The position numbers and the translations under genes are program-made. Shown here in pieces: positions 16,940 through 36,090 of a DNA stretch of 64,000 bases (position 1 is its first letter; each line of letters starts with the position of its first letter). Under the pieces are notes generated by a model that saw only the letters and a list, made by a program, of their open reading frames with translations, was not told the origin of the DNA and did no database searches. Origin of the DNA: a virus; IMG/VR virus record IMGVR_UViG_3300034198_009439, positions 37,736 through 101,735 of that record. One strand, given 5' to 3'.

Positions 16940-16946
16940 ATAAATA
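16940..16946 (+). promoter_or_regulatory. T4-type late promoter motif ATAAATA
   Basis: GATAAATAC lies 22 nt before the ATG at 16969 and opens the long accessory operon of mosaic proteins. Confidence 0.5.
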
Positions 16947-16968
16947 CTTTATATTTTTGGAAAATAAA

Positions 16969-18555
16969 ATGTCGGACATAAGAAAACTAATAGACTTACT
17001 AAGTGAGTCAAGCGTTGGGGCCACTGCCAGTGGTAATGTTGCCACTGTTGAGCAGTCTGCGTTTACTCAATCTCGTTCTACCGCAGTAGAAGCTTCACCT
17101 GTGCTAGAGTATGGCAACTGGGAAAATAGCGCACTGTCTACTAGTAAAAAGTTAAAGAAGACTCGTACTAAAGCAAGCAAGCTTGTAAAGAGCATTTACG
17201 GCGAAGATGCGATTGTTAAAGAGTCAAAGAGTGATGTGGCGGAAGCAAAATCTCCGGCAGAATTTATTGGACAGATGAAAAAGTTGACCAGCACAGAACA
17301 ACAATTCAACGTCGGTGATTGGGTAACTATTGATCCTAATGAAACCAGTGGGTACGCAAGTAGTGGAATGACAGGACGCATAGTTGAATTATACACCGAC
17401 GAAGGTGAACAAATGGCCAAAATTGATGTTGGCGGAGGCGGTGGTGTGCAAACAAAAATGAAAACTTATGGAGGCACATTTGGGCCACCAGGCACCACGA
17501 TAGGCCTAGGTAAAGGTGTTCGTAGTTATGGCACATATACCGTGGTTCCAACCTCAATCCTGCAAAAAGATGATCCACAAGGTGTGGCGGAAGGCTTAGC
17601 CGAAGCAATTGCGAGTGGTAATTATAGCGTAGGACTAGAGGATATTGGCAAACGAGTAACAGTTAATGGCGATACTGGAGGCAAGACTGGTTATGTGCTT
17701 GTGAGTATTAGATATTCACCACGTGGATTGGACGCAGAAATAGTTGATCGCAAAAACGGCAGTACTGGCTGGTACAACTTGACTGATATTTCAAAGTCAA
17801 ATGATCAACATTTAGGCGAGCAAGGTGTGGCGGAAGGCTCCTTAAATGAGATTGGCTATTCAGACAAATTGGGCAATCTAAATGTATCAGACTCTGAAAT
17901 TATTGCCTCTGCTACACAAGTTGGAACAATAAGTCAGAAACCTGTGATGAAGTATGAAAAGCACAATACTACATTGTTCTTTTTTTCCGATGATGAAAAA
18001 ATTTCAGCTTTGATATTATTAGTTGACGGAAATAAATTACGAGCAATTAAAAATTTCTCTGGACAAGCTGGGCAGATTTATGCTCTGATAAATTATATCG
18101 TAAACATTGACAATAGAAGATTAGTTATAACATCAGACGAGCCATTGACCAAGGAAGGGTTCAACTGGATTGCGAGATTAATCAAAGAGCCGACAGGGAT
18201 AAAAGTATCAACTTTAGATGGAGCATCGGTTGATGTTAAAACATTACACAACGAATGGCTAAAATCTAAATCAACTCGGGGAACCGAATCTGGAGAAACT
18301 GGTTTAGTCATCAGCGAATCATCACAAAAATGGAAAAATAAACTACAAGAAAATGAAACAAGATTAATTCCACATCATTATTTTAATGTTACGAGTAAAT
18401 CCAGAGAACAAGATGTGGCGGAAGAGCAGATTGACGAAGTTGCTGGTGCTCAAAAATGCTGGTCAGGTCATCGTAAAGTAGGCACTCAACCCGGCACTGG
18501 AAAAAATGCCGGTCAGCCAGTCAATAAATGTAAAAAGATATCCAAGTCTAAGTAA
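16969..18555 (+). CDS. Mosaic internal-protein candidate with VAEG linkers and C-terminal zinc motif
   Basis: 528 residues. I use the ATG at 16969; an in-frame TTG at 16957 is unlikely. The N-terminus (MSDIRKLIDLLSES) is amphipathic and resembles the starts of its neighbours. Residues ~105-195 read as an SH3-like barrel (NVGDWVTIDPNE...GRIVELYTDEGE), as do ~215-280. A module of about 175 residues (from EIGYSDKLG to IPHHYF) recurs in the genes at 23099 and 24427. The C-terminus (CWSGHRKVGTQPGTGKNAG...NKC) is a short Cys-containing motif. Modules are separated by QGVAEG (17578), QGVAEGSLNE (17821) and QDVAEEQIDE (18409). I suspect these are proteolytic processing sites for a capsid protease. 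Function unknown. Confidence 0.6.
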   Translation: MSDIRKLIDLLSESSVGATASGNVATVEQSAFTQSRSTAVEASPVLEYGNWENSALSTSKKLKKTRTKASKLVKSIYGEDAIVKESKSDVAEAKSPAEFIGQMKKLTSTEQQFNVGDWVTIDPNETSGYASSGMTGRIVELYTDEGEQMAKIDVGGGGGVQTKMKTYGGTFGPPGTTIGLGKGVRSYGTYTVVPTSILQKDDPQGVAEGLAEAIASGNYSVGLEDIGKRVTVNGDTGGKTGYVLVSIRYSPRGLDAEIVDRKNGSTGWYNLTDISKSNDQHLGEQGVAEGSLNEIGYSDKLGNLNVSDSEIIASATQVGTISQKPVMKYEKHNTTLFFFSDDEKISALILLVDGNKLRAIKNFSGQAGQIYALINYIVNIDNRRLVITSDEPLTKEGFNWIARLIKEPTGIKVSTLDGASVDVKTLHNEWLKSKSTRGTESGETGLVISESSQKWKNKLQENETRLIPHHYFNVTSKSREQDVAEEQIDEVAGAQKCWSGHRKVGTQPGTGKNAGQPVNKCKKISKSK

Positions 18556-19700
18556 TGAAAGCACACGAAATTGTTTCAGAAAGTTGGAGCGAAAAATACA
18601 AACGCTCCATTGACTGCTCTCGTCCCAAAGGTTTCTCTCAACGCGCACACTGTCAAGGTCGTAAGAAAAAAGTAAAAGAAGATATTCCGGTAAATTTAGT
18701 ATTCAACAGTATAGAACTGTCAGAATCTAGCATATCAACATACGCAAAACACTATTACTCAGCGCATCAAATTGAACAATCGCATGTGAAATTTACTTCT
18801 AATGTAAAACTTTTAGGAAAAAATAAATTAGCAGAATCAAAAGAAAATTCAGAAATAAAATCGTTTATAGACGCTATTAATCAACTTGATACTGTAAAAA
18901 AAATAAAAATAGGTGATAAATTTTCTGTATTGGCGTTTGAAATCAGATTTGCCTGGAGAGAAATTGATGCTATGGGATTCATAGAGTCAAAGACAGTATC
19001 AGATATAAACCTCAACGATAACGGAACTATTAACTACGTCATGTTTACTGATGGAGATCGTTATCCTAGACATGTTCAAGCAACTTACAATAATAAACTC
19101 GTAATACACACTGCGTATTTTAATAATTCTCAAGAGGCTAAAAAAGCACTGACATTTTTGGTGTTAAATGTTCCGGATAATTGGGGCTTGGACATTTCGG
19201 AAATAAAAGATGCTGACGGTGTAAATGAGACAAAAGATTCAAGTACGCTTCAAGATGATTTGATTTACATAATTTATATTAATAATCAACCAGTTGTAAG
19301 ACATACTTCTAAAGAAGATGTCGAGCGCGATGTTGCTGTCGTACTAAAAAAGTATCCAACGACAAAAATTGAAATACGAACCAAATCAAAAAATTCAGTA
19401 GAAGAAGATAACAACGGGTTGTCACCAACTACAAAAATGTTTCTTGAAAAAGAACAGATATTATCGACGCTAAATCGCAAACAGCACACAACGGAAGCAC
19501 TTAATTCAGATAATAGACTTCCAGATATTCCAACGACTACAACGTACATACTGTACAAGAATGTTGGAAATGAGTGGAATCCAGTTGCTAGATACCCAAC
19601 TGAAGAACAGGCACGTGACGCTGGTCGCGAAATGGCTCAAGAACTTGGCGGAAAATATCGGGTAAAACAAGTAGAGTACCCGACTACAAAATACGAATGA
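18555..19700 (+). CDS. Mosaic internal-protein candidate with N-terminal Cys/His motif
   Basis: 381 residues. The start MKAHEIVSESWSEKYK fits the M-K/R-x-x-E-I/F pattern of nearby genes. It is followed by DCSRPKGFSQRAHCQGRKKK, a short Cys/His basic motif that may bind zinc or DNA. Residues ~45-210 form a domain with no recognised motif. The region around DADGVNETKDSS resembles the processing-type linkers of neighbours. Residues ~310-381 hold TTTTYILYKNVGNEWNPVA and EEQARDAGREMAQELGGKYRVK, a small alpha/beta domain. The gene overlaps the preceding stop by one base (TAATG). Family not recognised. Confidence 0.55.
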   Translation: MKAHEIVSESWSEKYKRSIDCSRPKGFSQRAHCQGRKKKVKEDIPVNLVFNSIELSESSISTYAKHYYSAHQIEQSHVKFTSNVKLLGKNKLAESKENSEIKSFIDAINQLDTVKKIKIGDKFSVLAFEIRFAWREIDAMGFIESKTVSDINLNDNGTINYVMFTDGDRYPRHVQATYNNKLVIHTAYFNNSQEAKKALTFLVLNVPDNWGLDISEIKDADGVNETKDSSTLQDDLIYIIYINNQPVVRHTSKEDVERDVAVVLKKYPTTKIEIRTKSKNSVEEDNNGLSPTTKMFLEKEQILSTLNRKQHTTEALNSDNRLPDIPTTTTYILYKNVGNEWNPVARYPTEEQARDAGREMAQELGGKYRVKQVEYPTTKYE

Positions 19701-19708
19701 GGTAAATC

Positions 19709-20149
19709 ATGTTAGCAGACGAACTAAAAAAACTACTGGGCACTACCTTTGTGTTGTACACAAAAGTGCATGGCTTCCACTTTAATGTAGAAGGCCCTGA
19801 CTTCCCACAATATCATCAACTACTTGGAGATATTTACGAAGACATTTATTCATCTATAGATAAGATAGGCGAATACATACGCACACTAGACAGTTACACG
19901 CCCGGCAGTTTAGCCCGTATGCTAGAACTCAGTGTCATACAAGAGCAGCCAAAGATACCACGTGCTGAGTTGATGTTTGCTGAACTTATCGAGAACAACA
20001 CGGACTACATTTGCCTGTTGAACGAATGCTTCAAGTGTGCAGACGAAGAGAATCAACAAGGTATAGCAGACTTCATTGCTGGGCGTCTAGATGCTATGAA
20101 CAAACATCAGTGGATGATGAAGGCTATAATGAAGCGTCAGCGGGCGTGA
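19709..20149 (+). CDS. dps: Dps-like ferritin-family protein
   Basis: 146 residues, near the usual ~150-165 for Dps but with almost no N-terminal tail. The motif KVHGFHFNVEGPDFPQYHQLLGDIYEDIYSSIDKIGE is the Dps helix A-B signature; the His, Asp and Glu residues correspond to the inter-subunit ferroxidase ligands. Dps proteins form dodecamers that oxidise iron and coat DNA against peroxide damage. In a phage it may protect phage DNA or host nucleic acid. It starts 9 nt after the previous gene, with GAGGT upstream. A second, broken copy of its C-terminus follows at 20157-20273. Confidence 0.8.
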   Translation: MLADELKKLLGTTFVLYTKVHGFHFNVEGPDFPQYHQLLGDIYEDIYSSIDKIGEYIRTLDSYTPGSLARMLELSVIQEQPKIPRAELMFAELIENNTDYICLLNECFKCADEENQQGIADFIAGRLDAMNKHQWMMKAIMKRQRA

Positions 20150-20156
20150 TAGATCA

Positions 20157-20273
20157 TGCGTATACAAGAAAGAAAGACAAGAAGGCATTGCCAACTTCTT
20201 AGCAGAAAGATTAGAAGCAATGAACAAGCACGCCTGGATGATGCGCAGCATACTTAAAAAAGAACGAGCATGA
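20157..20273 (+). pseudogene. Relic of a second dps C-terminus
   Basis: In the frame ending at the TGA of 20271-20273 the sequence encodes RQEGIANFLAERLEAMNKHA and then WMMRSILKKERA. This matches the last 32 residues of the intact Dps (QQGIADFIAGRLDAMNKHQ, then WMMKAIMKRQRA). There is no start codon in this frame and the upstream part of the gene is missing. The relic sits directly between the intact dps and the kinase gene, and its final bases overlap the next ATG. It marks a tandem duplication with deletion, or recombination between two dps alleles. Confidence 0.75.
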
Positions 20274-21292
20274 AAATAGTTGAGTTACTAGAGAACATTA
20301 ATGTAACAGAGGGTGTACATGACCCTGCCATATTCAAAGTGGTGTTCATCATAGGCGGCCCTGGTAGCGGTAAGAGTAGAGTGGCGCATATGCTAGCTTT
20401 AAAATCGTTGGGATTTGTAAGCGTCAATAGTGATGAAGCGTTCTCTCATTTGTTGAAAAAGTCTGGGTTGAATTTAAAGATGCCTCCAGAAGAAGAGGCT
20501 CAACGCAGTAGCGTTCGTGCTAGAGCTAAAGAGATCACTGCTAACAAGATGCAGCTAGCGCTTGATGGGCGTCTTGGTATAGTAATTGACGGCACGGGCG
20601 AAGACTACAGAAAGATAGAGGGCATACACGCTAACTTAAGTGAGATGGGCTACGAGAGTTTCTTGGTAGTGGTCTATGCTAATCTAGAGACTGCCAAGCG
20701 TAGAAATGCTGCCAGAGAGCGCAGCGTACCCGAACATGTTGTTGAGAAGAAGTGGTACGGCGTTCAACAGAACTTGGACAACTTTTTGACGATGTTTGAC
20801 AATAGTGTAATCATTGACAATAATGGTACCGTATCTGATTTGACTCCACAGACCGAGCATGCTTACAAGATGATAGCGCGATGGTCACGAGTCAAATCTA
20901 GCTCACCCGAGGCGCAAAATTGGATCAATGATCAACTTGGTAACGACGATGACGATGATGTTGAAGACGATGATGTTGAAGACGATGATGTTGAAGATGA
21001 AGACATTCCAGAGCCTGAAGACGAAGTTACAGATGAGCCAGTGAAAGAGGGCTATTACAAAAATAAAGTCATAGCACAGCAAGAGTTAATGAATAAGCAA
21101 ACTGGTCAGTGGCCTACAGTTGATAATGCTGTTAGTCAAATAAAACCTAAATTTTGGAATGTAGAGATAAACGGCAAAATTTGGAAAAAATGGCGTGAAC
21201 CTGTTAAGATTCCAGATAGTAGAATAGATCGTGTTATTGATTCCATTCGTGGTCCGCAAGATGTAGTTAAAAAAATACCGGCAAAATCATGA
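20270..21292 (+). CDS. P-loop kinase (zeta-toxin/AAA_33-like) with acidic repeat tail
   Basis: 340 residues. The start MKIVELLENINVTEG fits the shared N-terminal peptide and includes a VTEG processing-like motif at residues 12-15. The kinase domain has Walker A GGPGSGKS at 29-36, an Asp after a beta strand in NSDEAF, and IVIDGTG as a Walker B-like strand; RRNAARERSVPEHVV fits the lid. It probably phosphorylates a nucleotide, nucleic-acid end or sugar nucleotide. Residues ~226-262 are an acidic linker with three DDVED repeats. The C-terminal ~80 residues (KEGYYKNKVIAQQEL...) form a separate small domain. Substrate unknown. Confidence 0.7.
   Translation: MKIVELLENINVTEGVHDPAIFKVVFIIGGPGSGKSRVAHMLALKSLGFVSVNSDEAFSHLLKKSGLNLKMPPEEEAQRSSVRARAKEITANKMQLALDGRLGIVIDGTGEDYRKIEGIHANLSEMGYESFLVVVYANLETAKRRNAARERSVPEHVVEKKWYGVQQNLDNFLTMFDNSVIIDNNGTVSDLTPQTEHAYKMIARWSRVKSSSPEAQNWINDQLGNDDDDDVEDDDVEDDDVEDEDIPEPEDEVTDEPVKEGYYKNKVIAQQELMNKQTGQWPTVDNAVSQIKPKFWNVEINGKIWKKWREPVKIPDSRIDRVIDSIRGPQDVVKKIPAKS
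20951..20995 (+). repeat. Three tandem 15-bp repeats encoding an acidic DDVED tract
   Basis: The unit GACGATGATGTTGAA occurs three times without change and continues into a degenerate fourth copy. It encodes the acidic linker of the P-loop kinase and is a likely site of slippage. Confidence 0.85.
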
Positions 21293-21708
21293 CTAATTGG
21301 ATGGAATACGTCAAGGCAAGTTATGACTTGATTATGTTGGCTCAGCAACGAGCGTCTACTGAGTTAGACTATGATGTTGGCGCCTTTGTTGTTCATACAT
21401 TTGCCAAGTATATGACCACCACTATTAGAACAGAAGAGCCAGTCGCAATCAAATTATTGACCGCTGTAAACAGTACTGGTGAATTGCGCAAACAACGCCT
21501 GATAGAAGTATCTGAAGAGTGCATGTTGATTGACGGACTTGAATTAAACAAGTCTCGTTGGGTAAGCAATGACTACTATCAGAACATTGGTATCATCGCA
21601 CTAGAGCATCGTGCATATAGTGAGCGTCCCCCAGAGTTACTTTACGATAGAATCGCTCAACAATTCAAAGACATTTCCAGAGTATTACATGCTGTAAGAT
21701 TAGTATAA
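21289..21708 (+). CDS. Hypothetical protein
   Basis: 139 residues, overlapping the kinase stop as ATGA. It is predicted mostly helical, with one central beta-like stretch (IKLLTAVNSTGELRKQRLIEVSEECML). No metal site or P-loop is seen. It lacks the N-terminal peptide shared by its neighbours, so it may work in the cytoplasm as a partner of the kinase. Family not recognised. Confidence 0.55.
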   Translation: MTNWMEYVKASYDLIMLAQQRASTELDYDVGAFVVHTFAKYMTTTIRTEEPVAIKLLTAVNSTGELRKQRLIEVSEECMLIDGLELNKSRWVSNDYYQNIGIIALEHRAYSERPPELLYDRIAQQFKDISRVLHAVRLV

Positions 21709-21711
21709 ATA
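21704..21711 (+). promoter_or_regulatory. T4-type late promoter TATAAATA
   Basis: A perfect TATAAATA overlaps the stop of the preceding gene and lies only 8 nt before the ATG at 21720. A transcript starting at the usual distance would have an extremely short leader. Confidence 0.55.
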
Positions 21712-21719
21712 CTAACAGC

Positions 21720-23102
21720 ATGAATATATTTGAAGTTATTGCTGGCAAAACTATTACTCTAAATCGCCTATACGGAGGAAATTTTCCTGATCGTTACGAA
21801 GATTTTTGGGATCATGTTCGTTCGCATGAGCTTGATAAAGAATTGCCAGTTAGAGTTCTACCAGCGTTTAATTTAAAATTACTATTGACTAGTCAATATC
21901 GTAAAGAAGATATTGATGAAGTGTCAGAACTATTAAATGATGGACAGCGAGATATTATCAATCGCTATCAGAAGGACCCACAACTCAGCAGTAAGATAAT
22001 AGTACTGTCTGGCAATAGAATTGTGGATGGCAATCATCGTGCTCTAGCCGCCGCGCTTAACAATGTAAGTATTAATTATGTTGATCTAGCAGACTTGGAT
22101 GAACAAGATGTGACTGAAGATTCTCTAAATGAAGTCAGCAAAGACTGGCGCGAAAGAAGTTCAGCGGAAGATAAGATAGGAAAGATAGCGTCCAGCCGCG
22201 AAAGATCGGATCAATTTACGATTGACGACATAAATGAAGTAAAAAGACTGATCAAAATTACAGGGCGCGCCTCAGTTATTTACGGAGGCAAAGAATATAA
22301 TAGGCTAGGAACAGCGGGCGGTATTTTAGATCATATGATTCATAACTATAGATTGAATCAAGCAAAATCTGGAGCAATGCCACAATTTACTGGAGTCGCA
22401 GCCAATGCTCGTGATATGGCCCGACAAATAGCAATGCAGACTAATGGAGATTATAATCAAAAATATGCCAGAGTATGGACTACTGGATACGGACAGAGAT
22501 ATAAAGACCCATCTGACTTTGTTGAATATAAAACTGAAGAAGACTATGATAGTGCCTGGGACTGGGTACAAAGCAAGGGCAAAAAAGTTTACTACTATGA
22601 TAATTTCAAGCATCTAAACACTGCTATAAAAATTGGAAGATATATAGTTGAGCCAGCTTCAGTTACCAGAGGTGTGTTTAGTGGTAATCCAGAAACAACA
22701 CATCAACTTAGTGTAAGAACGGCAGCAGTGATAAATCAAGCAGTTAGAAGACAAGCGGATATATCAGATCAACAAGCAATGGCACTCAAAGATATTGCTG
22801 CTACTAAAAACGCAAACGCTTTAGAAGGACTTAAACTTTTAATGAGTGTTCTTAAAGGTGAAGAAGACATTAAGAGTGTTATTGATAACTCTAAAAAGTT
22901 AGATCCCAAAGACAAGGCAAAGTTGGATGCCATAATTGCCGGCGCCAAAAATTTTAAAGAACCCGATCAAGATATAGCGGAAGCACGAAAGAAAAAGCGT
23001 AAACGCAAAGTGAATCGTACACCAAGAAGCATAACCACTGGATGGTGGGGTGGCTTTTACGGTGATAATAGTTCAGACGGCGAAGGTGGGGGTGGAGAGT
23101 GA
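21720..23102 (+). CDS. ParB-like domain protein, mosaic internal-protein candidate
   Basis: 460 residues. The N-terminus MNIFEVIAGKT loosely fits the shared leader. Residues ~40-120 form a ParB/Srx-like domain with IVLSGNRIVDGNHRALAAAL; the D-G-N-H-R at 103-107 is the ParB box 2 signature (CTP/nucleic-acid binding or nuclease). A QDVTEDSLNE linker follows at nt 22104-22133. Residues ~160-420 form a second, mostly helical region of unknown family. The C-terminus is very basic (KKKRKRKV) and ends in a Gly/Trp-rich tail. It is probably an ejected or DNA-associated protein; chromosome partitioning is unlikely in this context. Confidence 0.6.
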   Translation: MNIFEVIAGKTITLNRLYGGNFPDRYEDFWDHVRSHELDKELPVRVLPAFNLKLLLTSQYRKEDIDEVSELLNDGQRDIINRYQKDPQLSSKIIVLSGNRIVDGNHRALAAALNNVSINYVDLADLDEQDVTEDSLNEVSKDWRERSSAEDKIGKIASSRERSDQFTIDDINEVKRLIKITGRASVIYGGKEYNRLGTAGGILDHMIHNYRLNQAKSGAMPQFTGVAANARDMARQIAMQTNGDYNQKYARVWTTGYGQRYKDPSDFVEYKTEEDYDSAWDWVQSKGKKVYYYDNFKHLNTAIKIGRYIVEPASVTRGVFSGNPETTHQLSVRTAAVINQAVRRQADISDQQAMALKDIAATKNANALEGLKLLMSVLKGEEDIKSVIDNSKKLDPKDKAKLDAIIAGAKNFKEPDQDIAEARKKKRKRKVNRTPRSITTGWWGGFYGDNSSDGEGGGGE

Positions 23103-24430
23103 GAGCAAGTGAATTCACTAAGCAAGATGTGGCGGAAGGCTCGTATAGAGAAGGCGGTAGTATTACACACGATGGAGTAGAATATGATTTTGATAGGGTA
23201 ATGAGCATAGCAGAAAAATTGCCTACTAAGACTTGTTCTGTTGATAAACTCTCTTGGATACTCAAATACGATACTCCGAACAAAGAGCGTCTTGAACGTG
23301 CTGACATAACAGTTCCGTTAATAGTCACAAAGAGTTCTAATGGCAAATTAGCAGCAATAGATGGTTTACATAGATTGGCAAAAGCAGTTAGAGATAATGT
23401 AAAGACGTTGCCAGTGAAATATGTAAGTCCAAAGATGTTGCCATCAGCAAAAATCAGCAAGCAAGGCGTGACGGAGAGCATTCAACATAATTCACAAGAC
23501 CTAAAAGATGTGGCAGAATGGATGAGTACTACGTCTGACAAACTCAATATCGTAGTAAAGCAAGAACCAATTGAAAAGTTCATCAAACAAATTCGTGAGA
23601 TGTATGGCACTTACGATGAATTTCCAGAAGATGAAGAACGTACTAATCGTATTTTGAAGTTATTGAAGCGTGGTGCTAAACCACTACCTATGTATGTAGA
23701 AGCCAATGATCCAGACTTATTTGTTATGGAAGGTAGACATAGAATGGTGGCATTCTGGTTAGCAGGTATGAAAACTATTCCAGTTGCGTATGTTAGTGTA
23801 AAAGATAAGCAAGATGTGACGGAAGATAATGTGGTCAATGAAATTGATTATGCTTCAACACTAGCAAATCTTTCTATGTCTGATCAACAACTTATAAAAT
23901 CTTCATCTGTCGTGGGTACAATTGGATCTAGAGAAGTGTTTTTATTTACACAGGGAAATTCTAGAATTTATTTCTTTAAAGATAATGACGCTATAGACGC
24001 ATTAGTCTATCTATTCAAAAATCGTTTGCTAGGCATTAAGAATTATTCACGTAACAAAGGCTTGGTTTATAATTTATTACAGTACATTGTAAATATGAAT
24101 CGTGAGTCAATTAAACTAACGGAGATAGATAAACTAACTCCTGATGGAATACAGTGGATATTGCGACAAATTAAAACTTCAAGTGATTTTGTGATTACGG
24201 ATCAACGAGGAAATAAAATAGATTCGTCTAATCTATATGATGAATGGGAATTAGCAAGAACTTCTGGAAAACATGGATCAACTGAAATAGTAATTGCCCC
24301 ATCTGACAATAGAAAAAACATCAGAGAAAATGAATCGCGACTGATGCCCATGGATATTTGGGGAGCAACATTAAAAACTACTTCATCTAATGTTGTTGAT
24401 ATTAATACGTTATTAGAGATGACATCATGA
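23099..24430 (+). CDS. Double ParB-like protein with shared ~170-residue module
   Basis: 443 residues from a GTG that overlaps the previous stop. The N-terminus MRASEFTKQDVAEGS joins the shared leader to a VAEG motif. The first ParB-like domain (~70-110) has AAIDGLHRLAKAV with DGLHR at 88-92. The second (~150-228) has LFVMEGRHRMVAFWLAG with EGRHR at 211-215. Linkers KQGVTES (nt 23459) and KQDVTEDNVVNE (nt 23807) separate the modules. The last ~190 residues, starting EIDYASTLANLSMS, are homologous to modules in the genes at 16969 and 24427. Function unknown; nucleotide or DNA binding is the best guess from the ParB signatures. Confidence 0.6.
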   Translation: MRASEFTKQDVAEGSYREGGSITHDGVEYDFDRVMSIAEKLPTKTCSVDKLSWILKYDTPNKERLERADITVPLIVTKSSNGKLAAIDGLHRLAKAVRDNVKTLPVKYVSPKMLPSAKISKQGVTESIQHNSQDLKDVAEWMSTTSDKLNIVVKQEPIEKFIKQIREMYGTYDEFPEDEERTNRILKLLKRGAKPLPMYVEANDPDLFVMEGRHRMVAFWLAGMKTIPVAYVSVKDKQDVTEDNVVNEIDYASTLANLSMSDQQLIKSSSVVGTIGSREVFLFTQGNSRIYFFKDNDAIDALVYLFKNRLLGIKNYSRNKGLVYNLLQYIVNMNRESIKLTEIDKLTPDGIQWILRQIKTSSDFVITDQRGNKIDSSNLYDEWELARTSGKHGSTEIVIAPSDNRKNIRENESRLMPMDIWGATLKTTSSNVVDINTLLEMTS

Positions 24431-26904
24431 GATTAAAAGAATTTATCAATAAACATCATGTAACGGAAGACTCATTGAATGAGTTTTCTATCAATCGCGG
24501 AGATGGAGACGATGACGATGATAATAATCGAGGCCCGGGATTAACTCGTCAAGAATTTAAGAATGCTCTAAAACTTGCTCTAGGGTATGATATGAATGGA
24601 GTAAATGTGTCTACTTTTGAAGGCGGCATGCTCAGAGTTGAGGTAAATGGTGAACGACGAATAGTTCCATGTAATAAATTAGGCGTCAAGGATGCTGCTA
24701 ATTTTATAAAAAGAATAAAAAACCAAGGTGTGACAGAAGGCTCATTGAATGAATTAGCACCAAGTTCAGGTGGTCGCGATGATATACTAAAAACTTTGGC
24801 CGCACAATGGCTTCATGGTGATATAGCCAGTGGTGATTTGAGTAGTGATACTCAATCACAAGAACAAGTCGAGCGCAGATTAGAAAAAGGTATTGTCTGT
24901 CCAGATGGTGCGAAGCGTAAACTTTATATTGACTACAGTGATGATTATGAGGGTGTTGTAATTTACAGTGACGATGATTGGAGTATTACTTATAAGCAGG
25001 ATGACTTGAGTGAATCTAAACAAGGTGTGTCGGAAAACGGCGTTAAGGCTGATATAGAAGAATACTCTTTAAAAGAAATAGATTATTCTTCTGAATTAGA
25101 TTCTACAAATTTTTCGCACAGCAAAGTTATAAAACTTGGAGTAGTTGATGGTCAAATAGACGGGCATGATGTTATGAAAGCATCGTCTGGTGATCAAACA
25201 GTATATTTTTTACTATCTAATGATAGTAAAGTATCAGCCTTTTTAGGTTTTAAAAATGGATACTTGAAGAACATTAAAAACTTTAGTGGTGCTTCTGGAT
25301 TAATCAGTGCGTTGGTGGGTTATGTGGTTCATATTAAAAAAGAAAAGATAAAAATATCTCCAGATGAGCCTATGACTGAATCTGGCATCAAATGGTTATC
25401 TAAGCTAATTAAACAGCCACGTGGATTAACTATAACAAATCAGCGCGGTGAGTCAGTTGATGCAGAAGCGTTAAAACAAGAATGGTCAAACGCAAAAAAC
25501 ACTGGAGCTGCGGGCACTACTGGTATTACTATTAACGAAAATTTTTCGTTTGGTAATAAAATAAGACTTAACGAAGAGTCAAGAAAACAAGACTCTATAC
25601 TTATGCCACATAATTTTTACATAAGTCGGAAAGAGGTGGCGGAAGACTCATTGAATGAGTTCGCCACTAGCGGCGACGATGACAATAGACCACAGCGTCC
25701 GATGTTATTAGCAGATGTTGCCAAAATAATCAAGGCAAAATTAGGTCCAGGTTGGACTATGGAACATGTTGGTAGAACTGAACAGCCAGGATACAAATTC
25801 ATTCCAACAGATAAGACAAAACACGGAATGGCTAAGATTTGGTGCTTAGTAGATTGGGATAAGGTGGGTGAATATCCAACTTACAATACAATACTGTATT
25901 CATTCCAGAATGAAAATGGTAGACTGATGGCTCATGGTCGACACACAGAACGAGCAAAATCTAAAACCGTTTCCAACGCATTAGTGACAGCGCAAACACT
26001 ACTTGGAAATACTGATGGAGCATTAAAAGATTCGGTGACAGAAGACACAGTTGACGAAATGACACTCAAAACCTATAAGACTATGGGTGACTTTAGTAAG
26101 CCAGGACCATTCAAAGACCCAGATTACAAATTAGTCACACATCCAGTTCACATACAGAAGGTAACAGATTTCTTTCAACGCGTTCCACACGATTTTCGTT
26201 TCTTCATGAGCAATCTTCCCGGTATGAGAAAGTATCAAGAAAGTGGCGAGAAAACTCCGCAAGAAATACAACAAATGTTTGGCGAAAAAATAGCCAGAGA
26301 AATTCTGCAAGATACTGAAGATGCTATTACTGTTATTTATATTGGAAATTACGGTCAGAATAAGGTAATGATGTCTCCGCATACTATGGCACATCGTGTT
26401 GGTCATGCTATTACTGCCGCTGGTAGATACGAACGTAGCAAAGTAATTCCGGAATGGACTGAATTATACAATCATTTTTTCAATCAACTTAAAAAAATAG
26501 TAGTAGACTGCTATCAACGACCAGAATCTAACAGATATGATTACTTTACCACTAGACAACAAAGTGTCGATATGGAAGCAAAATATATGGCACTAATGTA
26601 TCAGATTGGGACCCTAAAGAGTAGTCGTGAGCGTAATCTAAATAACACATACGAATTCTTGTATGAAATGTTAGCGCAATATATTAGAACAGGCAAAGTA
26701 ACTCTAAATCCATTGCCAATCAGCGCTGGTTACGGTCGTCTAGTTGGTTGGAAGACAAAATCATTTCAAAAGTATATACGCATAAATTCCGAATGTAGTG
26801 ATGAGCTTTATCGCACTGAAGTTACACAACGATTAGCAAGAGATATGGGAATATTATTCGGGCAAGTATTAGGTGGTTGTGTTGGTAAAATATTTGTGAT
26901 GTAA
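24427..26904 (+). CDS. Large multi-module internal-protein candidate with five processing-type linkers
   Basis: 825 residues, ATGA overlap with the previous gene. The N-terminus MRLKEFINKHHVTEDSLNEF matches the shared leader and already contains a linker motif. Further linkers are NQGVTEGSLNE (24721), KQGVSENG (25018), KEVAEDSLNE (25630) and DSVTEDTVDE (26029). Modules in order: an acidic small domain (~20-95), a domain with DDYEGVVIYSDDDW (~105-195), the ~175-residue module shared with two other genes (~215-400), a small alpha/beta domain (~415-530), and a C-terminal domain of about 285 residues. The last contains SPHTMAHRVGHAI and YEFLYEMLAQYI, which could be a degenerate His/Glu metal site. 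No enzyme can be named with confidence. Confidence 0.6.
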   Translation: MRLKEFINKHHVTEDSLNEFSINRGDGDDDDDNNRGPGLTRQEFKNALKLALGYDMNGVNVSTFEGGMLRVEVNGERRIVPCNKLGVKDAANFIKRIKNQGVTEGSLNELAPSSGGRDDILKTLAAQWLHGDIASGDLSSDTQSQEQVERRLEKGIVCPDGAKRKLYIDYSDDYEGVVIYSDDDWSITYKQDDLSESKQGVSENGVKADIEEYSLKEIDYSSELDSTNFSHSKVIKLGVVDGQIDGHDVMKASSGDQTVYFLLSNDSKVSAFLGFKNGYLKNIKNFSGASGLISALVGYVVHIKKEKIKISPDEPMTESGIKWLSKLIKQPRGLTITNQRGESVDAEALKQEWSNAKNTGAAGTTGITINENFSFGNKIRLNEESRKQDSILMPHNFYISRKEVAEDSLNEFATSGDDDNRPQRPMLLADVAKIIKAKLGPGWTMEHVGRTEQPGYKFIPTDKTKHGMAKIWCLVDWDKVGEYPTYNTILYSFQNENGRLMAHGRHTERAKSKTVSNALVTAQTLLGNTDGALKDSVTEDTVDEMTLKTYKTMGDFSKPGPFKDPDYKLVTHPVHIQKVTDFFQRVPHDFRFFMSNLPGMRKYQESGEKTPQEIQQMFGEKIAREILQDTEDAITVIYIGNYGQNKVMMSPHTMAHRVGHAITAAGRYERSKVIPEWTELYNHFFNQLKKIVVDCYQRPESNRYDYFTTRQQSVDMEAKYMALMYQIGTLKSSRERNLNNTYEFLYEMLAQYIRTGKVTLNPLPISAGYGRLVGWKTKSFQKYIRINSECSDELYRTEVTQRLARDMGILFGQVLGGCVGKIFVM

Positions 26905-26923
26905 CTCAATCACGCTTTATAGA

Positions 26924-26930
26924 CTAAATA
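26924..26930 (+). promoter_or_regulatory. T4-type late promoter motif CTAAATA
   Basis: CTAAATA lies exactly 6 nt before the ATG at 26937, with CATATT between. The same arrangement, TAAATACATATTATG, occurs before the gene at 41535. No ribosome binding site fits between motif and ATG. Confidence 0.5.
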
Positions 26931-26936
26931 CATATT

Positions 26937-29474
26937 ATGAGTTTAAATTTTGACGATCAATTATCTATAACTGAAGCAGAAATGTCCCCCAGTGCATTTA
27001 GCGGAGCATTACAGCAGGGTGAAGTTGATCGCGTGCTTGTTGGGTTTGAATTTGAATTCTGCATGCCTAAGAGCAAAATTAAAGAACTCACTGCGTCTAC
27101 AACTACTACCACTACTTCAACTGAAGAAGAAATATTTCAACAATTACGACGAACAAATTTGTTACACTATACTCCATACGGCAGTATTAATCTAGCTAAT
27201 TTTAATAAATGTTTTAAAGTAAAGCCTGGATTTAAATATCCTACTCTTGGTATGGGATTGCGTGGCTATATAGATGCCACGATTGATAAGTGTATTAAAA
27301 TATTCTATGAAATTCCGGAAGAAGAGCGAGCTAGAATTTCTAAAGTGGCTCTTAAGAAATTACGAGAACAGGGCGCAGCACAAATGCTTAATGTAGGTAC
27401 TTTTTGTGTTATTAGCGCGGCAAAATTATTAAGATATAAAACAGATCAGATAGCTTATCTAAGATATTTTTGCCAGGAAGCATCGCGAGAGCGTACTATC
27501 CCCATGCAATGGAGTAACTCTAAGTATAAAAAAATTATAGATTTAATTTATGGTCGTTTAATAACTTATAAATTTTTATTATATTTTATTACTGGAGCAT
27601 CTCAAGAAAGAATCGTACAAAATCCACAAGATTATTTAGATATAGTATCAATTGACGCTGCCAACAACATCTTATCTGTCAGTGAGCGTGCTACTGGTAG
27701 TTCATATATGGATTATGCTAAAGCTGTTTCAAAACTATGTCAGAGTTATGTTAAAAAGACGCCAATAATATTCATTCGTCGTCATGAAAGACCAAAAAAT
27801 CTAGTAGATTGGTATATTGAGCCTGATGGTAGTGTTATACCCACTGATTCTGAACAGGGAGGAGAATTAGTTAGTCCGCCGTTTAGGCCTGCTGTTGCCA
27901 TGGATATGTTAAAACAGTTTTACGCCATGTCTGTAGAGGGACAATTTAATGTAAGCAAAGCTAGAAAAACTGGACTACATATAAATGTCAGCATACCTAA
28001 GAAAATTGATTTGTTAAAGTTGGCAATATTTACAGCCGATGATCGTATTTTGACTCAATTTGATAGACAGAATTATGACTACGCTGTCAATGTAATGAAC
28101 AGTTTAAAACAATCTTTATCTAGTAATACTAAATTAAAAAACGACGCTAGAGTTGATAGTGATAAGGTATTGTCACGGATTGAATCTATTGCCAAAGGAA
28201 TAATGAAAGATCACACTGCCAGTATCAGTTCTGAAAACAAAAACTATATTAGTTTTCGCAGCGTTGGATTTGATTATTTAAGCCCCGGGCAGTTTAAACA
28301 TGTTGTAGATGCTGTTGGACGATTTGTTCGCGCTATAATTATTGCCAGCGACCCAGACGCATATCGTTCTGAGTATCTAAAGAAATTACAAGACTTGCTT
28401 GAAACTAATATACCAAAAAAAGAAAATCTGACAACTTCAGAATTAATAAATCTGTATCGTAATATAAAACAAAATGGTATACCAGCAATCAAAACAATAG
28501 CATATCTTACTAAAAATAATAAAAAAGCAGCAAATAAAATAGATTATTTTGGAAGCATGCTTCTTCATCTTTCTGGTTTAACCCAGCGATCTTATAAACC
28601 TAAAGAAATAATTAATACTCCAGTAAGAAATGCCACTGACGAAGAAAAGAACTTATTAACGACTACTATTACCGCCAGCAATAAACCGGCAAACATCAAT
28701 GCCACTGTTGATAAAATTAATGATCCAGTCGCAACTATAAAAACTGTAACGCTAACTGCTTCAAAAAACCCAGAAATATTAATCAAAATTATTAATATGG
28801 CTGATTCAGTAGTTAAATTACAACAAACAATGACAATGACTTACTACACTGGTGTAGAGTATCTAGGATATGGTGGTTGGGGATTAGTACAACCAACTAG
28901 AATACCCATAACAGATGATCCAGCAACTACCGATATATTAAAATACTTGAAGAGACAAATAGAAAAATCAAAAGAAACGACAAAAAAACTTAATTTACCA
29001 GAAATGATTCAAGAAGAATTAGATGTAAATAAGATTTATTACTTTGCGTATGGTATGTTGACCGACGAGAGCAAAATGAAACACTTGAACGCCAAGAAAA
29101 TAGGCAGAGCAGTACTATCTGATTTTAAATTGGAATTATTACAGCATGCTAATATCGTCAAAGAATCTGGATCAAAAGTTGTGGGTGTACTTTGGGAAAT
29201 AGATAAAGACGCACAAGATGTCTTGGATCAGATTGAGGGTTATCCAGTATATTACAATAGAATAGTAGCATCAGTAAAAACAGATACTGATGTGGTAGAT
29301 GCCGAAGTTTATATTATGACCGATCAATCTCGCAAACATTCATATGAACACGGATATCCTACTCAGAGATACGTAGATGACATAGTTCGTGGATATCGTG
29401 CCGCACGAATTAATATAAATCAGCTAATCACTGCTCTAAATGAATTAAACAGTAGACTTGACGATGAAAAGTAA
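26937..29474 (+). CDS. Amidoligase fused to a gamma-glutamylcyclotransferase-like domain
   Basis: 845 residues. The N-terminal two thirds carry the amidoligase_2 (ATP-grasp/glutamine-synthetase-like) motifs: VGFEFEF at ~35-41, WYIEPDGSVIP and GGELVSPPF near 300-325, and TGLHINVSI near 345. From about residue 699 the sequence KIYYFAYGMLTDES opens a GGCT-like domain, with VVGVLWEIDKDAQDVLDQIEG as the usual second block and a conserved acid in the loop. In the literature these two families are linked in peptide amide-bond formation and cleavage, so the pair may add and remove amino acids from a protein or peptidoglycan peptide. The N-terminus SITEAEMSP is a possible processing site. A second amidoligase is at 43930. 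Substrate unknown. Confidence 0.75.
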   Translation: MSLNFDDQLSITEAEMSPSAFSGALQQGEVDRVLVGFEFEFCMPKSKIKELTASTTTTTTSTEEEIFQQLRRTNLLHYTPYGSINLANFNKCFKVKPGFKYPTLGMGLRGYIDATIDKCIKIFYEIPEEERARISKVALKKLREQGAAQMLNVGTFCVISAAKLLRYKTDQIAYLRYFCQEASRERTIPMQWSNSKYKKIIDLIYGRLITYKFLLYFITGASQERIVQNPQDYLDIVSIDAANNILSVSERATGSSYMDYAKAVSKLCQSYVKKTPIIFIRRHERPKNLVDWYIEPDGSVIPTDSEQGGELVSPPFRPAVAMDMLKQFYAMSVEGQFNVSKARKTGLHINVSIPKKIDLLKLAIFTADDRILTQFDRQNYDYAVNVMNSLKQSLSSNTKLKNDARVDSDKVLSRIESIAKGIMKDHTASISSENKNYISFRSVGFDYLSPGQFKHVVDAVGRFVRAIIIASDPDAYRSEYLKKLQDLLETNIPKKENLTTSELINLYRNIKQNGIPAIKTIAYLTKNNKKAANKIDYFGSMLLHLSGLTQRSYKPKEIINTPVRNATDEEKNLLTTTITASNKPANINATVDKINDPVATIKTVTLTASKNPEILIKIINMADSVVKLQQTMTMTYYTGVEYLGYGGWGLVQPTRIPITDDPATTDILKYLKRQIEKSKETTKKLNLPEMIQEELDVNKIYYFAYGMLTDESKMKHLNAKKIGRAVLSDFKLELLQHANIVKESGSKVVGVLWEIDKDAQDVLDQIEGYPVYYNRIVASVKTDTDVVDAEVYIMTDQSRKHSYEHGYPTQRYVDDIVRGYRAARININQLITALNELNSRLDDEK

Positions 29475-30228
29475 TGAATTTTTATCGGAATCTCAAGCAG
29501 GATTACCCGATGACTTACAAAAAATACTGTCCGAAAAGGGATACCGTTATATAAATGCGGGCGCTGAACATACTGTATGGTTGGGTCCAGATGGATTCGT
29601 ATATAAGATAATGCCTCCCAGATTTATCAAAGAAGAAACCGCAAAAAAATTACAAATGGGCAGTAAACGCCCAGAAGATGTGTATGTGACTAAAGCTCAA
29701 CAATGCTTTATTGATTGGGTTGAATACTGTCAAAATCATCCCAATAATAAATTTCTACCATTCTTTGATGATTGGAAACCATATATACATGAGTTCGTAA
29801 GAGACAATAAAAAGTATTACTACTTCTATATTCAATGTAGAACCGAACGATTATTCCCATTACACGATTGGAAAAAACTTACCTGGGCAGATACTGATTT
29901 AATTACTGGAGAAATTGATTGGGGTCAAGCACTTAGTGAGATAGCATATGATATTGCCTATGGTATGTCAAAACAAGGTTTTATTAAAAGATTGAAGAAT
30001 GGTGCTGCTAGACAGGGAACATATCAAGTCGTTAGTCATATGGGAGATCAGCGAACACTAACACTGTTTTATGATACCATTACTGATTTGATTCGTATTG
30101 CCACTAATAAAGGATACAGACTTGATTTACACAGTGATAACTTTATGTTGGGCAGTGATGGACATATAGTTATTAATGACCCATTCTTTATTAGATACGC
30201 ACCCGAAAACGATATGTATAGCAGTTAA
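29464..30228 (+). CDS. Protein-kinase-like protein
   Basis: 254 residues. I chose the ATG at 29464, inside the end of the amidoligase gene. The N-terminus MKSNEFLSESQAG matches the shared leader. The kinase fold is suggested by INAGAEHTVWLGPDGFVYKI (glycine-loop-like, with Lys48 as the beta-3 lysine), RLDLHSDNFML (Asp221 and Asn226, catalytic loop spacing D-x4-N) and VINDPF (Asp239 in the DFG place). It is shorter than most Ser/Thr kinases but close to phage and aminoglycoside-type kinases. T4-like phages are known to deliver or express enzymes that modify host proteins. Activity inferred; target unknown. Confidence 0.6.
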   Translation: MKSNEFLSESQAGLPDDLQKILSEKGYRYINAGAEHTVWLGPDGFVYKIMPPRFIKEETAKKLQMGSKRPEDVYVTKAQQCFIDWVEYCQNHPNNKFLPFFDDWKPYIHEFVRDNKKYYYFYIQCRTERLFPLHDWKKLTWADTDLITGEIDWGQALSEIAYDIAYGMSKQGFIKRLKNGAARQGTYQVVSHMGDQRTLTLFYDTITDLIRIATNKGYRLDLHSDNFMLGSDGHIVINDPFFIRYAPENDMYSS

Positions 30229-30230
30229 GA

Positions 30231-30237
30231 GTAAATA
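30231..30237 (+). promoter_or_regulatory. Possible late promoter GTAAATA
   Basis: GTAAATACT lies 19 nt before the ATG at 30257 in the short gap after the kinase-like gene. It differs from the consensus at the first base. Confidence 0.3.
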
Positions 30238-30256
30238 CTAATGAAATAATTTAATC

Positions 30257-31696
30257 ATGCGCGCACGAGAAATACTAACAGAAACCGTTGAAGAGCAACA
30301 AAACATTGTAACAATGGCTAAAAACATAATTAAATGGCACTCAGAAAAAATAGGCGATATGTCGTCTCTATTAAAAAATAGAAATAATATATCCTCTCAA
30401 TTATACAATGAATCAGAAGATGATGATATTTCAGACGACGAATTACTTTCAATAATGAATCGTGCTAGGAACAAAGCCAAGAAATCAGGAATTGATGATA
30501 TTGATATCTCAGACGACGAATTACTCGCCATTATGAACAAAAATAAAATGGCGAAGTTTGATTATGATAATTGGTTAAACAGGCCTATACGTCTAATTGA
30601 TGTAGTCGGTTCTGGCCCGTGGACGCCAACTGTTAACGATTGGTTAAGCACAAATCCTACAATAATATTTGCCACAGAAGACAATTCTTCTTTGAAAATT
30701 AGAAAGGACGCATTACAAAAATTTTGGGGATGGTGGGATTCTACGCTTAATCATATTGTTATTAACTGCGCGATGCGGCGACCGGTTTCTTCTTATCTAT
30801 CGACGATTGTTCATGAGCTTCAACACGGGTTGGATTATTATAAGTCTAATTCTCTTGCAGGACAACGCTCTCTTGCAGGACGAGGTGGATCAGCAACACG
30901 AGCCAAACAAGAAAAAGAGGACATCTCAACTATAATAGCGGCATTCAAAAACGCAATAGATAGAATTCCAAGTTCCGGGCTTTACATCAAAGATATTATT
31001 ACTTCAGACTCGTTACAATCAACAATCTTTAAAAATCTTGTAAATGATCCCGAGATTGCTTCTATGAAAATAGAATCGCCAGAGAGTGAATACTCAGATG
31101 AAATGCAGGCGGATCGTTATCTTGATCTTGATATTGATAACAAGTCCGGTACGTATCTAATGTTTTACTGGGTAATTGAAGCGTTGCTAATTGGTTCAAC
31201 TAAAGATTTTCTAACAAAACTAGAAAATACTTTAAATGAATATCGTAATTCATACTATAAACCTAGAGCCGGCTATAGTAACGCAGTAAAACAAGGCTCT
31301 CTTGAATTAGATAAAAACCGCAGCGAATATCTGAGTAAAAATCATGAAATAAATGCCAGAATTTCTCAAGCATTTCACGCTATTATTGAACGTCTAACTC
31401 AACAAAATTTTAAAGGTTATTCAAAAAATAAAAAAACAGCAGAACTACAGCAGAAAGAAATATCCAACGTTGTTAACGCAGTTTATAGTAGTTACCATAT
31501 TAATGGTAGTTTATTTCCGGAACGAATTCGCGAAGAAAGACTTAGACGATTACAAAGAAGACTTCAGCAGTATATATTGGCTCATTTTCCGGAAAATAGT
31601 AACATCATTCCTAAGGCCATCATTCCGCGACGTAATGATGACGTTAGAAAATTACTCTCGCTATTAGGCCCAGAAGGTTTAAAAAATATAAAATAA
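30257..31696 (+). CDS. Zinc metallopeptidase-like protein (HELQH)
   Basis: 479 residues. The leader MRAREILTETVEEQQ matches the shared N-terminal pattern. Residues ~57-96 hold a duplicated acidic segment (ISDDELLSIMN and ISDDELLAIMN). The zincin site is STIVHELQHGLDY, His186-Glu187-x-x-His190. A candidate third ligand is in EYSDEMQADRYLD near residue 283, typical of gluzincin-like glutamates. A short IIF and NHIVINC strand precedes the site as in metallopeptidases. The C-terminal ~180 residues are helical and basic (RRLQRRLQQY). If it is packaged and injected it could act on host envelope or cytoplasmic proteins. Metal site clear, substrate unknown. Confidence 0.65.
   Translation: MRAREILTETVEEQQNIVTMAKNIIKWHSEKIGDMSSLLKNRNNISSQLYNESEDDDISDDELLSIMNRARNKAKKSGIDDIDISDDELLAIMNKNKMAKFDYDNWLNRPIRLIDVVGSGPWTPTVNDWLSTNPTIIFATEDNSSLKIRKDALQKFWGWWDSTLNHIVINCAMRRPVSSYLSTIVHELQHGLDYYKSNSLAGQRSLAGRGGSATRAKQEKEDISTIIAAFKNAIDRIPSSGLYIKDIITSDSLQSTIFKNLVNDPEIASMKIESPESEYSDEMQADRYLDLDIDNKSGTYLMFYWVIEALLIGSTKDFLTKLENTLNEYRNSYYKPRAGYSNAVKQGSLELDKNRSEYLSKNHEINARISQAFHAIIERLTQQNFKGYSKNKKTAELQQKEISNVVNAVYSSYHINGSLFPERIREERLRRLQRRLQQYILAHFPENSNIIPKAIIPRRNDDVRKLLSLLGPEGLKNIK
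30428..30543 (+). repeat. Two direct repeats encoding ISDDELL-type acidic segments
   Basis: ATTTCAGACGACGAATTACT and ATCTCAGACGACGAATTACT recur about 75 nt apart inside the metallopeptidase gene. They encode ISDDELLSIMN and ISDDELLAIMN. Confidence 0.6.
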
Positions 31697-31697
31697 T

Positions 31698-32204
31698 ATG
31701 AAAATATCCGACTTTCGCATACACAGTACTGATAAATTGGACAGCATTCTCGCGAAATGCTGCGAGATGATTTTGACAAAACAACGAGAGGGCTCGGAAT
31801 ATTGGGGAATGGTTGGTGCTTGTGTATTGGACATGGAGAATCGCGCTGTATATGGTGTTAATCACGCTATGGACGATGGTAAACGCAAACACGCAGAACG
31901 AGCGGCAATTGATAATTACCGAGAAAAGTACGGTGACAATTTGGAACACTGTATTATTATCACTACTCTTAGTCCCTGTAGTGAACCATTAGACGAACGC
32001 TGGGGCGATAGTTGTACCGACTTGATAAATGAAATTGGAATACATAAAGTCTATTGCGGATACAAAGATCCAAGTCAAGATCATAGCGAAACTTATCTAC
32101 ACAAACACTTTCATGTCAAGTGTACTCGCAACCAAAAGTTGAACGAACTGTGTAAACGGTTTGCCGACACCTTTTTGAATTCGGATGACACCGATCACAG
32201 TTGA
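31698..32204 (+). CDS. Zinc-dependent nucleoside/nucleotide-type deaminase
   Basis: 168 residues. It begins MKISDFRIHSTDK, again close to the shared leader, and starts 2 nt after the metallopeptidase stop. The deaminase core is KHAERAAI (His65-Ala-Glu67) and SPCSEPLDERWGDSC (Cys94 and Cys106). The usual spacing is Pro-Cys-x-x-Cys, whereas here 11 residues separate the two Cys, as in some divergent deaminase subfamilies. It could act on a pyrimidine nucleotide, a pterin-type base or a nucleic acid. Fold assignment good, substrate unknown. Confidence 0.7.
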   Translation: MKISDFRIHSTDKLDSILAKCCEMILTKQREGSEYWGMVGACVLDMENRAVYGVNHAMDDGKRKHAERAAIDNYREKYGDNLEHCIIITTLSPCSEPLDERWGDSCTDLINEIGIHKVYCGYKDPSQDHSETYLHKHFHVKCTRNQKLNELCKRFADTFLNSDDTDHS

Positions 32205-32554: not shown

Positions 32555-32814
32555 GTGATTCAATGTCTGCTCATCGCGACGATCTTCGTGAGTGGAATGA
32601 ATTTTGTGAAAAAACTAAAATTCCACTTAGTTGGAGAGTCTATAGTCCGGACTCAATGTGGGCAAGAAGATTTCATAATGAACGTGGGTTAGTGGGACGA
32701 GAATTAATGTTGGCTGTAAAGCAAGAACTAGAAACTATAGCTCTTAAACAGAAACACGCCACTCAGCAACAAGAGCTTAAGCAGTTAATTGAATTGGAAA
32801 AGAAGTATCAATGA
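32551..32814 (+). CDS. Hypothetical small charged protein
   Basis: 87 residues, translationally coupled to both neighbours by ATGA overlaps. The C-terminal half is a long charged helix (LKQKHATQQQELKQLIELEKK) that could form a coiled coil. Its position just before DNA polymerase suggests a replication-linked role. Family not recognised. Confidence 0.6.
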   Translation: MSDSMSAHRDDLREWNEFCEKTKIPLSWRVYSPDSMWARRFHNERGLVGRELMLAVKQELETIALKQKHATQQQELKQLIELEKKYQ

Positions 32815-35291: not shown

Positions 35292-35332
35292 TTTTAATTC
35301 TTATTTAGTAAAGCTCCATAAATATATTTATC

Positions 35333-36061: not shown

Positions 36062-36064
36062 ATA
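36058..36064 (+). promoter_or_regulatory. Possible late promoter ATAAATA
   Basis: Overlaps the stop of the intein N-half and lies 26 nt before the homing endonuclease ATG at 36091. Confidence 0.35.
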
Positions 36065-36090
36065 ATCTATGGAGATAGAAGTATCAGCAT

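Follow-up and report, generated by a model that had tools for sequence, protein, structure and literature searches.

Introduction

In phage T4, the prohead protease gp21 cuts after Leu/Ile-x-Glu, and the first ten residues of the leader of internal protein (IP) III suffice for targeting (PMC9026906). In the T4-like cyanophage S-CREM2, 52 virion proteins have been identified by mass spectrometry (MS), its own prohead protease included (PMC10665884, Table 3). The present work concerns a block of genes in the IMG/VR virus record IMGVR_UViG_3300034198_009439; the window, the whole stretch of 64,000 bases analysed, covers bases 37736–101735 of this 101,735-base record. Feature coordinates are window positions, genes and sites of the block lie on the plus strand, and a downward arrow marks a putative cut. 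A first-pass annotation made from the window sequence had proposed that mosaic proteins with a shared N-terminal leader are packaged in the head and ejected into the host. Our reading, which we hold to be likely, is that the block encodes head-packaged, prohead-protease-processed effector polyproteins that are assembled by module exchange at their sites.

According to this proposal, the genes at ~16.9–31.7 kb and at 43.9 kb would be made late and drawn into the prohead by an N-terminal capsid-targeting leader resembling that of the T4 IPs, and the phage's own gp21-family protease would cut the leaders after Glu during head maturation. Several of the proteins would be polyproteins, which internal VxE↓[GDSEA] sites would split into single-domain products of ~40–420 amino acids (aa). 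The products of one polyprotein (GNAT-like, ParB-like and small basic Cys peptides) would be packaged via a single targeting leader and would enter the next host together with the DNA, and the ~20-bp repeat that encodes the sites would also be the place where modules join and swap between phages. Packaging, cleavage at the internal sites, injection and anti-host function are predictions from sequence.

N-terminal leaders

The eight N-termini listed in the first-pass annotation, which had counted at least eight genes starting M-K/R-x-x-E/D-F/I/L, were all present at their assigned starts. The pattern M[KR]xx[ED][FILVY] matched exactly those eight among the 89 curated gene starts of the whole 101.7-kb record, against a mean of 0.40 and a maximum of 4 in 2000 shuffles of residues 2–25; an origin of the leaders by chance or composition was rejected on these shuffles. 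The eight are unequal. Complete T4-like leaders begin the products of 18555–19700 (MKAHEIVSE↓SWSEKYKRSIDCSRPKGFSQRAHC..., its mature start being a small basic Cys module common to many relatives), 29464–30228 (MKSNEFLSE↓S; protein-kinase-like, phrog_15752, T7 gp0.7-type kinase, 9e-5; an internal ATG inside a longer TTG open reading frame (ORF), 29458) and 30257–31696 (MRAREILTE↓T; a zincin-like candidate with HELQHGLDY). In 20270, 23099 and 24427 an M[KR]xxE[FL] head is joined to a VxE site (INVTE↓G, QDVAE↓G and HHVTE↓D, respectively). A plausible leader, MRYKDFYTE↓L, starts the second amidoligase-like protein (43930–46206; ATAAATA 24 bp upstream), a homologue of which lies inside a polyprotein of locus L108. 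The deaminase-like product of 31698–32204 (phrog_174, 1e-5; homologues start MRASDF and MKLSDF) has the head MKISDF and no nearby LxE site. A further leader, absent from the earlier list, starts ORF 16969 (MSDIRKLIDLLSE↓SSVGATASGNVATVE) and mirrors the site QLLAE↓SSAGTTVAGNIATLN that the record's major capsid protein (MCP) itself bears. Position P3 at the leader end is Leu in 30257 (LTE), 29464 (LSE) and 16969 (LSE), Val in 18555 (VSE), 20270, 23099 and 24427, and Tyr in 43930; the cut motif is absent in 31698.

A position-specific leader profile was built from 76 distinct leaders of other (metagenome) contigs, T4 being absent from the training. The top three scores of the record fell to 30257 (13.9 bits), 29464 (12.7 bits) and 18555 (9.9 bits), and these three genes reached at least 5 bits where shuffles gave 0.13. 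Applied to 252 T4 genes, the profile ranked IPIII first, IPII second, Alt fourth and gp24 fifth; ipII and ipIII are annotated in the T4 genome, and the genes that we take to be Alt and gp24 were identified by position and length. Alt and gp24 are known gp21 substrates. The likeness to T4 internal proteins and Alt that the first reading had pointed to was recovered independently by a profile trained on relatives. As relatives we used 120 IMG/VR loci (L004–L123) that carry the DNA core of the internal sites described below, and their ORFs were scanned for leaders. The strict leader motif was found in 24 of 108 site-bearing ORFs (0.5 in shuffles) and in 70 of 782 other ORFs (3.5 in shuffles), so the leader is conserved in uncultured relatives.

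It is very likely that the leader-bearing set is a T4-type capsid-targeted arsenal. The alternative is that these are ordinary late or host-takeover enzymes whose leader likeness reflects common descent of their N-termini and not targeting, and it may draw on packaging in this phage being a prediction. The leader is, however, common to unrelated families (kinase, deaminase, amidoligase-like proteins and Cys peptides), and the T4 control above and the S-CREM2 control below also speak against this alternative, which makes it extremely improbable.

Prohead protease and head genes

On the minus strand, to the left of the window, lie the genes of a T4-type head module (gp23-type capsid protein, scaffold, S77 protease and portal), followed by T4-like baseplate genes recognised from sequence by eye only. 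The prohead protease belongs to the gp21 family (S77; PF03420, E 7e-28; phrog_207, 1.7e-59) and contains the GEVDHP and SSRG motifs. The packaging idea gains support because this protease sits in the same record, beside the gp23-type capsid protein, the scaffold and the portal. The nearest cultured relatives of the capsid protein come for the most part from jumbo T4-like phages (Phosso, PA5oct and the 121Q group; 64–67% identity). In the record's own MCP and in those of six relatives the site reads LxE↓[SN]..AG.T.AGN[IV]ATLN, with A or T at position 3 of AGxT, and this pattern after the cut is echoed in ORF 16969 and in the first polyproteins or leaders of relatives (...ESASGGGTSAGSVASV, QIVENTTAGSVATVAQ).

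Among the long site-bearing records of relatives, 6 of 29 have an S77 protease. In the 17 records tested, the gp23-type capsid protein was found in exactly the six S77 records; the protease was thus present wherever the head cluster was complete. The portal was found in the same six and in one record that is truncated within this gene's locus, and the other tested records were without MCP, protease and portal. Site-bearing records without S77 were considered as a counter-case and set aside, the MCP and portal being absent there too or the contig ending at the portal. Two large site-bearing contigs, G011 (343 kb, holding locus L044) and G018 (262 kb, holding L080), gave no match to a gp23-type capsid protein, portal or S77 protease, and may be fragments of very large genomes or have another head type.

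Internal sites and their DNA repeat

The main feature missed in the first-pass annotation is the presence of internal VxE sites, [QK][GDE]V[ATS]E↓[GDSEN] (in a stricter form [KE]Q[GD]V[AT]E↓[GD]S), at the module joints of the products of 16969–18555, 21720–23102, 23099–24430 and 24427–26904. Its proposal of a packaged arsenal is sustained by the S77 protease of the record, the conservation of the leader and the matching leaders of S-CREM2 virion proteins; the polyprotein organisation is what it overlooked. Each site corresponds to a copy of a dispersed DNA repeat of ~20 bp, whose 17-bp core, CAAGGTGTGGCGGAAGG, is present in at least 120 IMG/VR stretches. The reversed string was found in no IMG/VR stretch, and a chance origin of the core was rejected on this count (0 occurrences). 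Among the matches listed, 163 of 163 core copies are read as QGVAEG in the long frame, which has a median of 593 codons (28 and 17 for the other frames), and the ORFs of relatives carry up to eight sites each, frequently 50–150 residues apart.

Conservation of the site extends to the nucleotide level. Beyond about one ascertained copy per locus, ~43 extra QGVAEG sites were nucleotide-exact and 15 were not (~74%, where background codons predict 0.5%); GCG makes up 8% of Ala codons elsewhere in the IMG/VR loci, whereas the codons of the site are nearly fixed, and the flanking wobble bases are conserved as well ([GA]AG precedes and C follows the core in L004–L123). We infer that the repeat spreads and stays uniform via recombination at module joints. 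The near-fixed codons and conserved wobble bases would also suit a primarily selfish or recombinogenic DNA element that inserts in permissive coding sequence, with the peptide incidental, and in this respect the repeat can be likened to the in-frame palindromic repeats of Rickettsia. Such an origin is very unlikely: only 5 of 285 sites look inserted into an otherwise continuous homologue, a result on which in-frame selfish insertion was rejected, and every listed copy stands in one frame. Moreover, diverged copies within the window keep VxE despite altered DNA, and LxE sites outside the repeat serve the same role at leaders.

Whether sites coincide with module boundaries was assessed by comparing 365 real sites with an equal number of random pseudo-sites, both masked. 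Homology blocks started within 15 residues after 185 real and 54 pseudo-sites, and ended just before 174 real and 50 pseudo-sites; the opposite sides of sites showed no excess (12 vs 12 and 7 vs 13). Alignments spanned 62 of the 365 real sites and 167 of the 365 pseudo-sites. Leader ends were also seen to trade places with internal sites: MRSSEFVFE↓KWSEKYKSSINCSHP matches QGVAE/EWSQKYKSSINCSHP elsewhere, and MRATEFIVE↓NSIPTIGINVR matches QGVAEGSS/NNIPTIGINVR (92% over 120 aa). Where modules from mature starts were found internally in other proteins, a strict site stood at the joint in 56 of 234 cases (14.7 expected). The Cys module of 18555 follows MRAKEFISE↓, MKLSEIIIE↓ or MRSSEFVFE↓ in relatives, and also follows internal QGVAE; the last module of 24427 is a separate gene with the leader MRATEFITE↓ in L037, and the N-terminal module of 21720 is homologous to an internal stretch of L104. 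As judged from these alignments, an N-terminal leader end and an internal site are interchangeable before the same module.

That the prohead protease cuts the internal sites is probable but unproven. The leaders could be real targeting signals and the internal VxE repeats flexible linkers of intact, uncut "polyvalent" proteins, shuffled at these positions because linkers tolerate joints. For this speak the Val in place of Leu/Ile at P3 and the known polyvalent phage proteins of 2–15 domains, some of them delivered intact (PMC5512222). Linkers, on the other hand, have no need of an invariant Glu at P1 followed by a small residue. The motif found internally swaps with the cut end of the leader before the same module, and it also forms the end of some leaders, for example MRASEFTKQDVAE↓G. 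Uncut linkers are therefore unlikely, and cleavage by the prohead protease remains the preferred reading.

Outside these loci, the site was sought in bacterial genomes (GTDB, 257 Gb) and discarded as a bacterial feature: the 26 isolated 18-mer matches, one per ORF save one ORF with two, fell in GC-rich DNA only, at about chance level. Among cultured phages, no convincing match was obtained in INPHARED and no exact copy in S-CREM2. We found no description of such sites in the open literature, outside of which most subscription papers and preprints lie, nor any earlier account there of polyproteins organised with a DNA-encoded site cassette.

Virion proteins of S-CREM2

Leaders of this kind start several non-structural virion proteins of S-CREM2: MKDFDSFLEE (S-adenosylmethionine (SAM) hydrolase), MKRFDAFLTE (kinase), MKNFSSFLTE (cytidylyltransferase), MKDLHSFLTE and MQTFSMFFSE. 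We relied on the profile, whose training leaders all came from metagenome contigs, because a T4-like regular expression, applied to the same 217 genes, had been written after the S-CREM2 N-termini were seen. Scores of at least 2 bits were obtained for 5 of 26 non-structural virion proteins and for 2 of 166 undetected proteins (p 5.5e-4); among the five, gp17 and gp13 are represented by one MS peptide each, and gp156 owes its score to a short MKKLISE. Homologues of site-bearing metagenome proteins were in the virion in 6 of 7 cases (p 8e-4), a count from which two DNA polymerase matches were left out, polymerases having entered the site-bearing set via a loose regular expression. These homologues include gp160, with the modules CWPGYEKKGTKK..NNC and CYHKVKARYDVWPSAYASGALVKCRKKG; the latter is shared with polyprotein P0001 of L058, and proteins of P-SSM2 and Bellamy contain both modules. 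The work of others thus places leader-bearing and homologous proteins in the virions of a distant cultured relative, which by analogy is consistent with packaging here.

In these cultured cyanophages, PSSM2_123 of P-SSM2 (L137) and gp123 of Bellamy (L138), encoded beside neck and terminase genes, are built from the same small Cys modules in series, joined at LxE-like motifs such as ELDE↓KCWKGY and DIEE↓GKKDACY.

Organization and cargo of the block

Polyprotein 1 (528 aa, 16969–18555) has ~five modules, one of them a GNAT-like domain, and internal sites that read, in order, DVAE↓A, GVAE↓G, GVAE↓G and DVAE↓E. The two QGVAE↓G sites (17578–17595 and 17821–17838) have the exact 17-bp DNA core, QDVAE↓E lies at 18409–18426, and the last module is a basic Cys peptide (KCWSGHRKVGTQPGTGKNAGQPVNKC). 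Polyprotein 2 (460 aa, 21720–23102), with the N-terminus MNIFEVIAG and a basic C-terminal peptide, carries QDVTE↓D (22104–22121) and QDIAE↓A (~22968). Polyprotein 3 (443 aa, 23099–24430) has a GTG start codon, begins MRASEFTKQDVAE↓G and comprises two ParB/Srx-like modules and the second GNAT-like copy; its leader site QDVAE↓G (23123–23140) is followed by QGVTE↓S (23462–23479) and QDVTE↓D (23810–23827). In polyprotein 4 (825 aa, 24427–26904), which starts MRLKEFINKHHVTE↓D and has ~five modules with the third GNAT-like copy, the sites are QGVTE↓G (24724–24741), QGVSE↓N (25021–25038), KEVAE↓D (25630–25647) and, before the C-terminal module, VTE↓D (26035–26049; repeat family D3).

Late-promoter-like motifs precede two of these genes: ATAAATAC at 16940–16947, 22 bp upstream of ORF 16969, and (T)ATAAATAC at 21705–21712, 8 bp upstream of ORF 21720. 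In the record, 10 of 15 copies of this motif, these two included, lie within 60 bp upstream of gene starts (4–49 bp; 0.39 expected), and 16969 and 21720 may accordingly be expressed late.

The four polyproteins gave no Pfam match above cut-off. The domain present three times (16969, 23099 and 24427; 34–39% identity to the first copy) yielded a weakly GNAT-like model (predicted local distance difference test (pLDDT) 73; PDB E 9e-3, template-modelling (TM) score 0.36; BFVD NAT_SF E 5e-5). For the ParB-like modules of 23099 the phrog matches are weak, and their counterpart sits within a polyprotein of L049, where PF02195 is found. Polyproteins 3 and 4 each combine several module types (ParB-like, GNAT-like and others across the two), with weak domain assignments. 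The zincin-like HExxH was seen, by inspection, only in the separate gene 30257. Structure prediction of the C-terminal module of 24427 reached pLDDT 32 and no inference was drawn; 24427 had no match in INPHARED (tblastn), and PADLOC returned nothing useful. Cargo in relatives includes GH19, ParB_N, GNAT and many modules without assignment.

The block encodes two further enzymes. The P-loop kinase (zeta-toxin/polynucleotide-kinase-like; 20270–21292; leader MKIVELLENINVTE↓G; PF06414 4e-14, PF13671 5e-13) gave no hit in a homologue scan, and its ORF contains an in-frame 15-bp tandem repeat (DDDVE) at 20950–21007. On inspection, the protein encoded by 26937–29474 is amidoligase-like; it has a weak leader, SITE↓A, and a gamma-glutamyl cyclotransferase (GGCT) domain at its C-terminus (PF06094 6.6e-14). 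A leaderless Dps-like gene (19709–20149) has kept its place next to leader genes in many related loci (L092, L037, L012, L020, L091, L086 and L008).

Elsewhere in the window, a family-B DNA polymerase is fractured (32811–38015): one piece stops at 34427, next to an endonuclease-like ORF on the opposite strand (34422–35291), and a second break falls within the YGD/TDS active-site motif, where intein-like halves (35333–36061 and 37026–38015) flank a free-standing endonuclease-like ORF (36091–37050). This layout resembles the "fractured gene" split-intein arrangement. A putative tail/adhesin protein (10011–11669) has a C-terminal HINT-like autoprocessing domain (CFAYGTKILMSDGTSKNIEDL ... NGILVHN) and is followed by a subtilisin-like protease ORF (11675–13096).

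Discussion

Several observations weigh against processed, packaged polyproteins. Within the block, polyprotein 2 is without a clear leader and leaderless genes (Dps-like 19709, and 21289) are interspersed; the DNA-level conservation of the site exceeds the need of a protease, and the internal sites carry Val at P3, where T4 gp21 favours Leu/Ile (PMC9026906). In S-CREM2, a rank test across the whole protein set did not reach significance (p 0.20), enrichment being confined to the high-scoring tail; most non-structural virion proteins have no recognisable leader, and the authors caution that some of the proteins detected may have co-purified (PMC10665884). Packaging here and a cut at VxE are both predictions from sequence. 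A broader proposal, that a widespread uncultured T4-like lineage builds its injected arsenal as processed polyproteins in a combinatorial, integron-like manner, with the ~20-bp cassette as both cut site and recombination joint, is tentative and in our view somewhat short of probable.

If packaging and processing are as proposed, one leader profile and one site motif would turn large numbers of unannotated genes of environmental T4-like phages into a defined protein set that reaches the cytoplasm as infection begins, a natural place to search for anti-defence and host-takeover enzymes. Polyprotein processing would deliver several effectors per targeting signal, and the protease site would double as a module-exchange joint.

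Among known systems, T4 IPI–III and Alt are similar in their ~10-residue leader M[KR]...[ED]F[IL]xE↓, the LxE↓small-residue site, the S77 protease, late expression and diverse cargo; T4 has four such proteins and none is a polyprotein, whereas the present phage has many, several with repeated internal sites from a DNA repeat. The DarA and DdrB proteins of phage P1 are likewise processed, head-packaged anti-host (antirestriction) proteins, for which we know of no common leader or repeated internal site. The polyvalent proteins known from phages and conjugative elements (Iyer et al., 2017; PMC5512222) resemble the present ones in being multidomain (ParB-like, zincin and other effectors) and in their predicted delivery with DNA; their processing was ascribed to built-in metallopeptidase domains, and repeated prohead-protease-type sites between modules or a common targeting leader are not described in the part of that survey used here. 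The ejection (inner body) proteins of phiKZ and SPN3US are also packaged in the head and cut multiple times after Glu by the gp21-related gp175/gp245; those cuts strip long N-terminal propeptides (PMC10052503), whereas the fragments between cuts here look like separate, interchangeable modules. Finally, the virion kinases, cytidylyltransferases and SAM hydrolase of S-CREM2 come with similar leaders, common modules (gp160 and gp137) and a T4-type protease, differing in having no exact copy of the DNA repeat; the authors left the route of entry into virions open (PMC10665884), and the leader could account for enzymes whose presence in cyanophage virion proteomes had no explanation.

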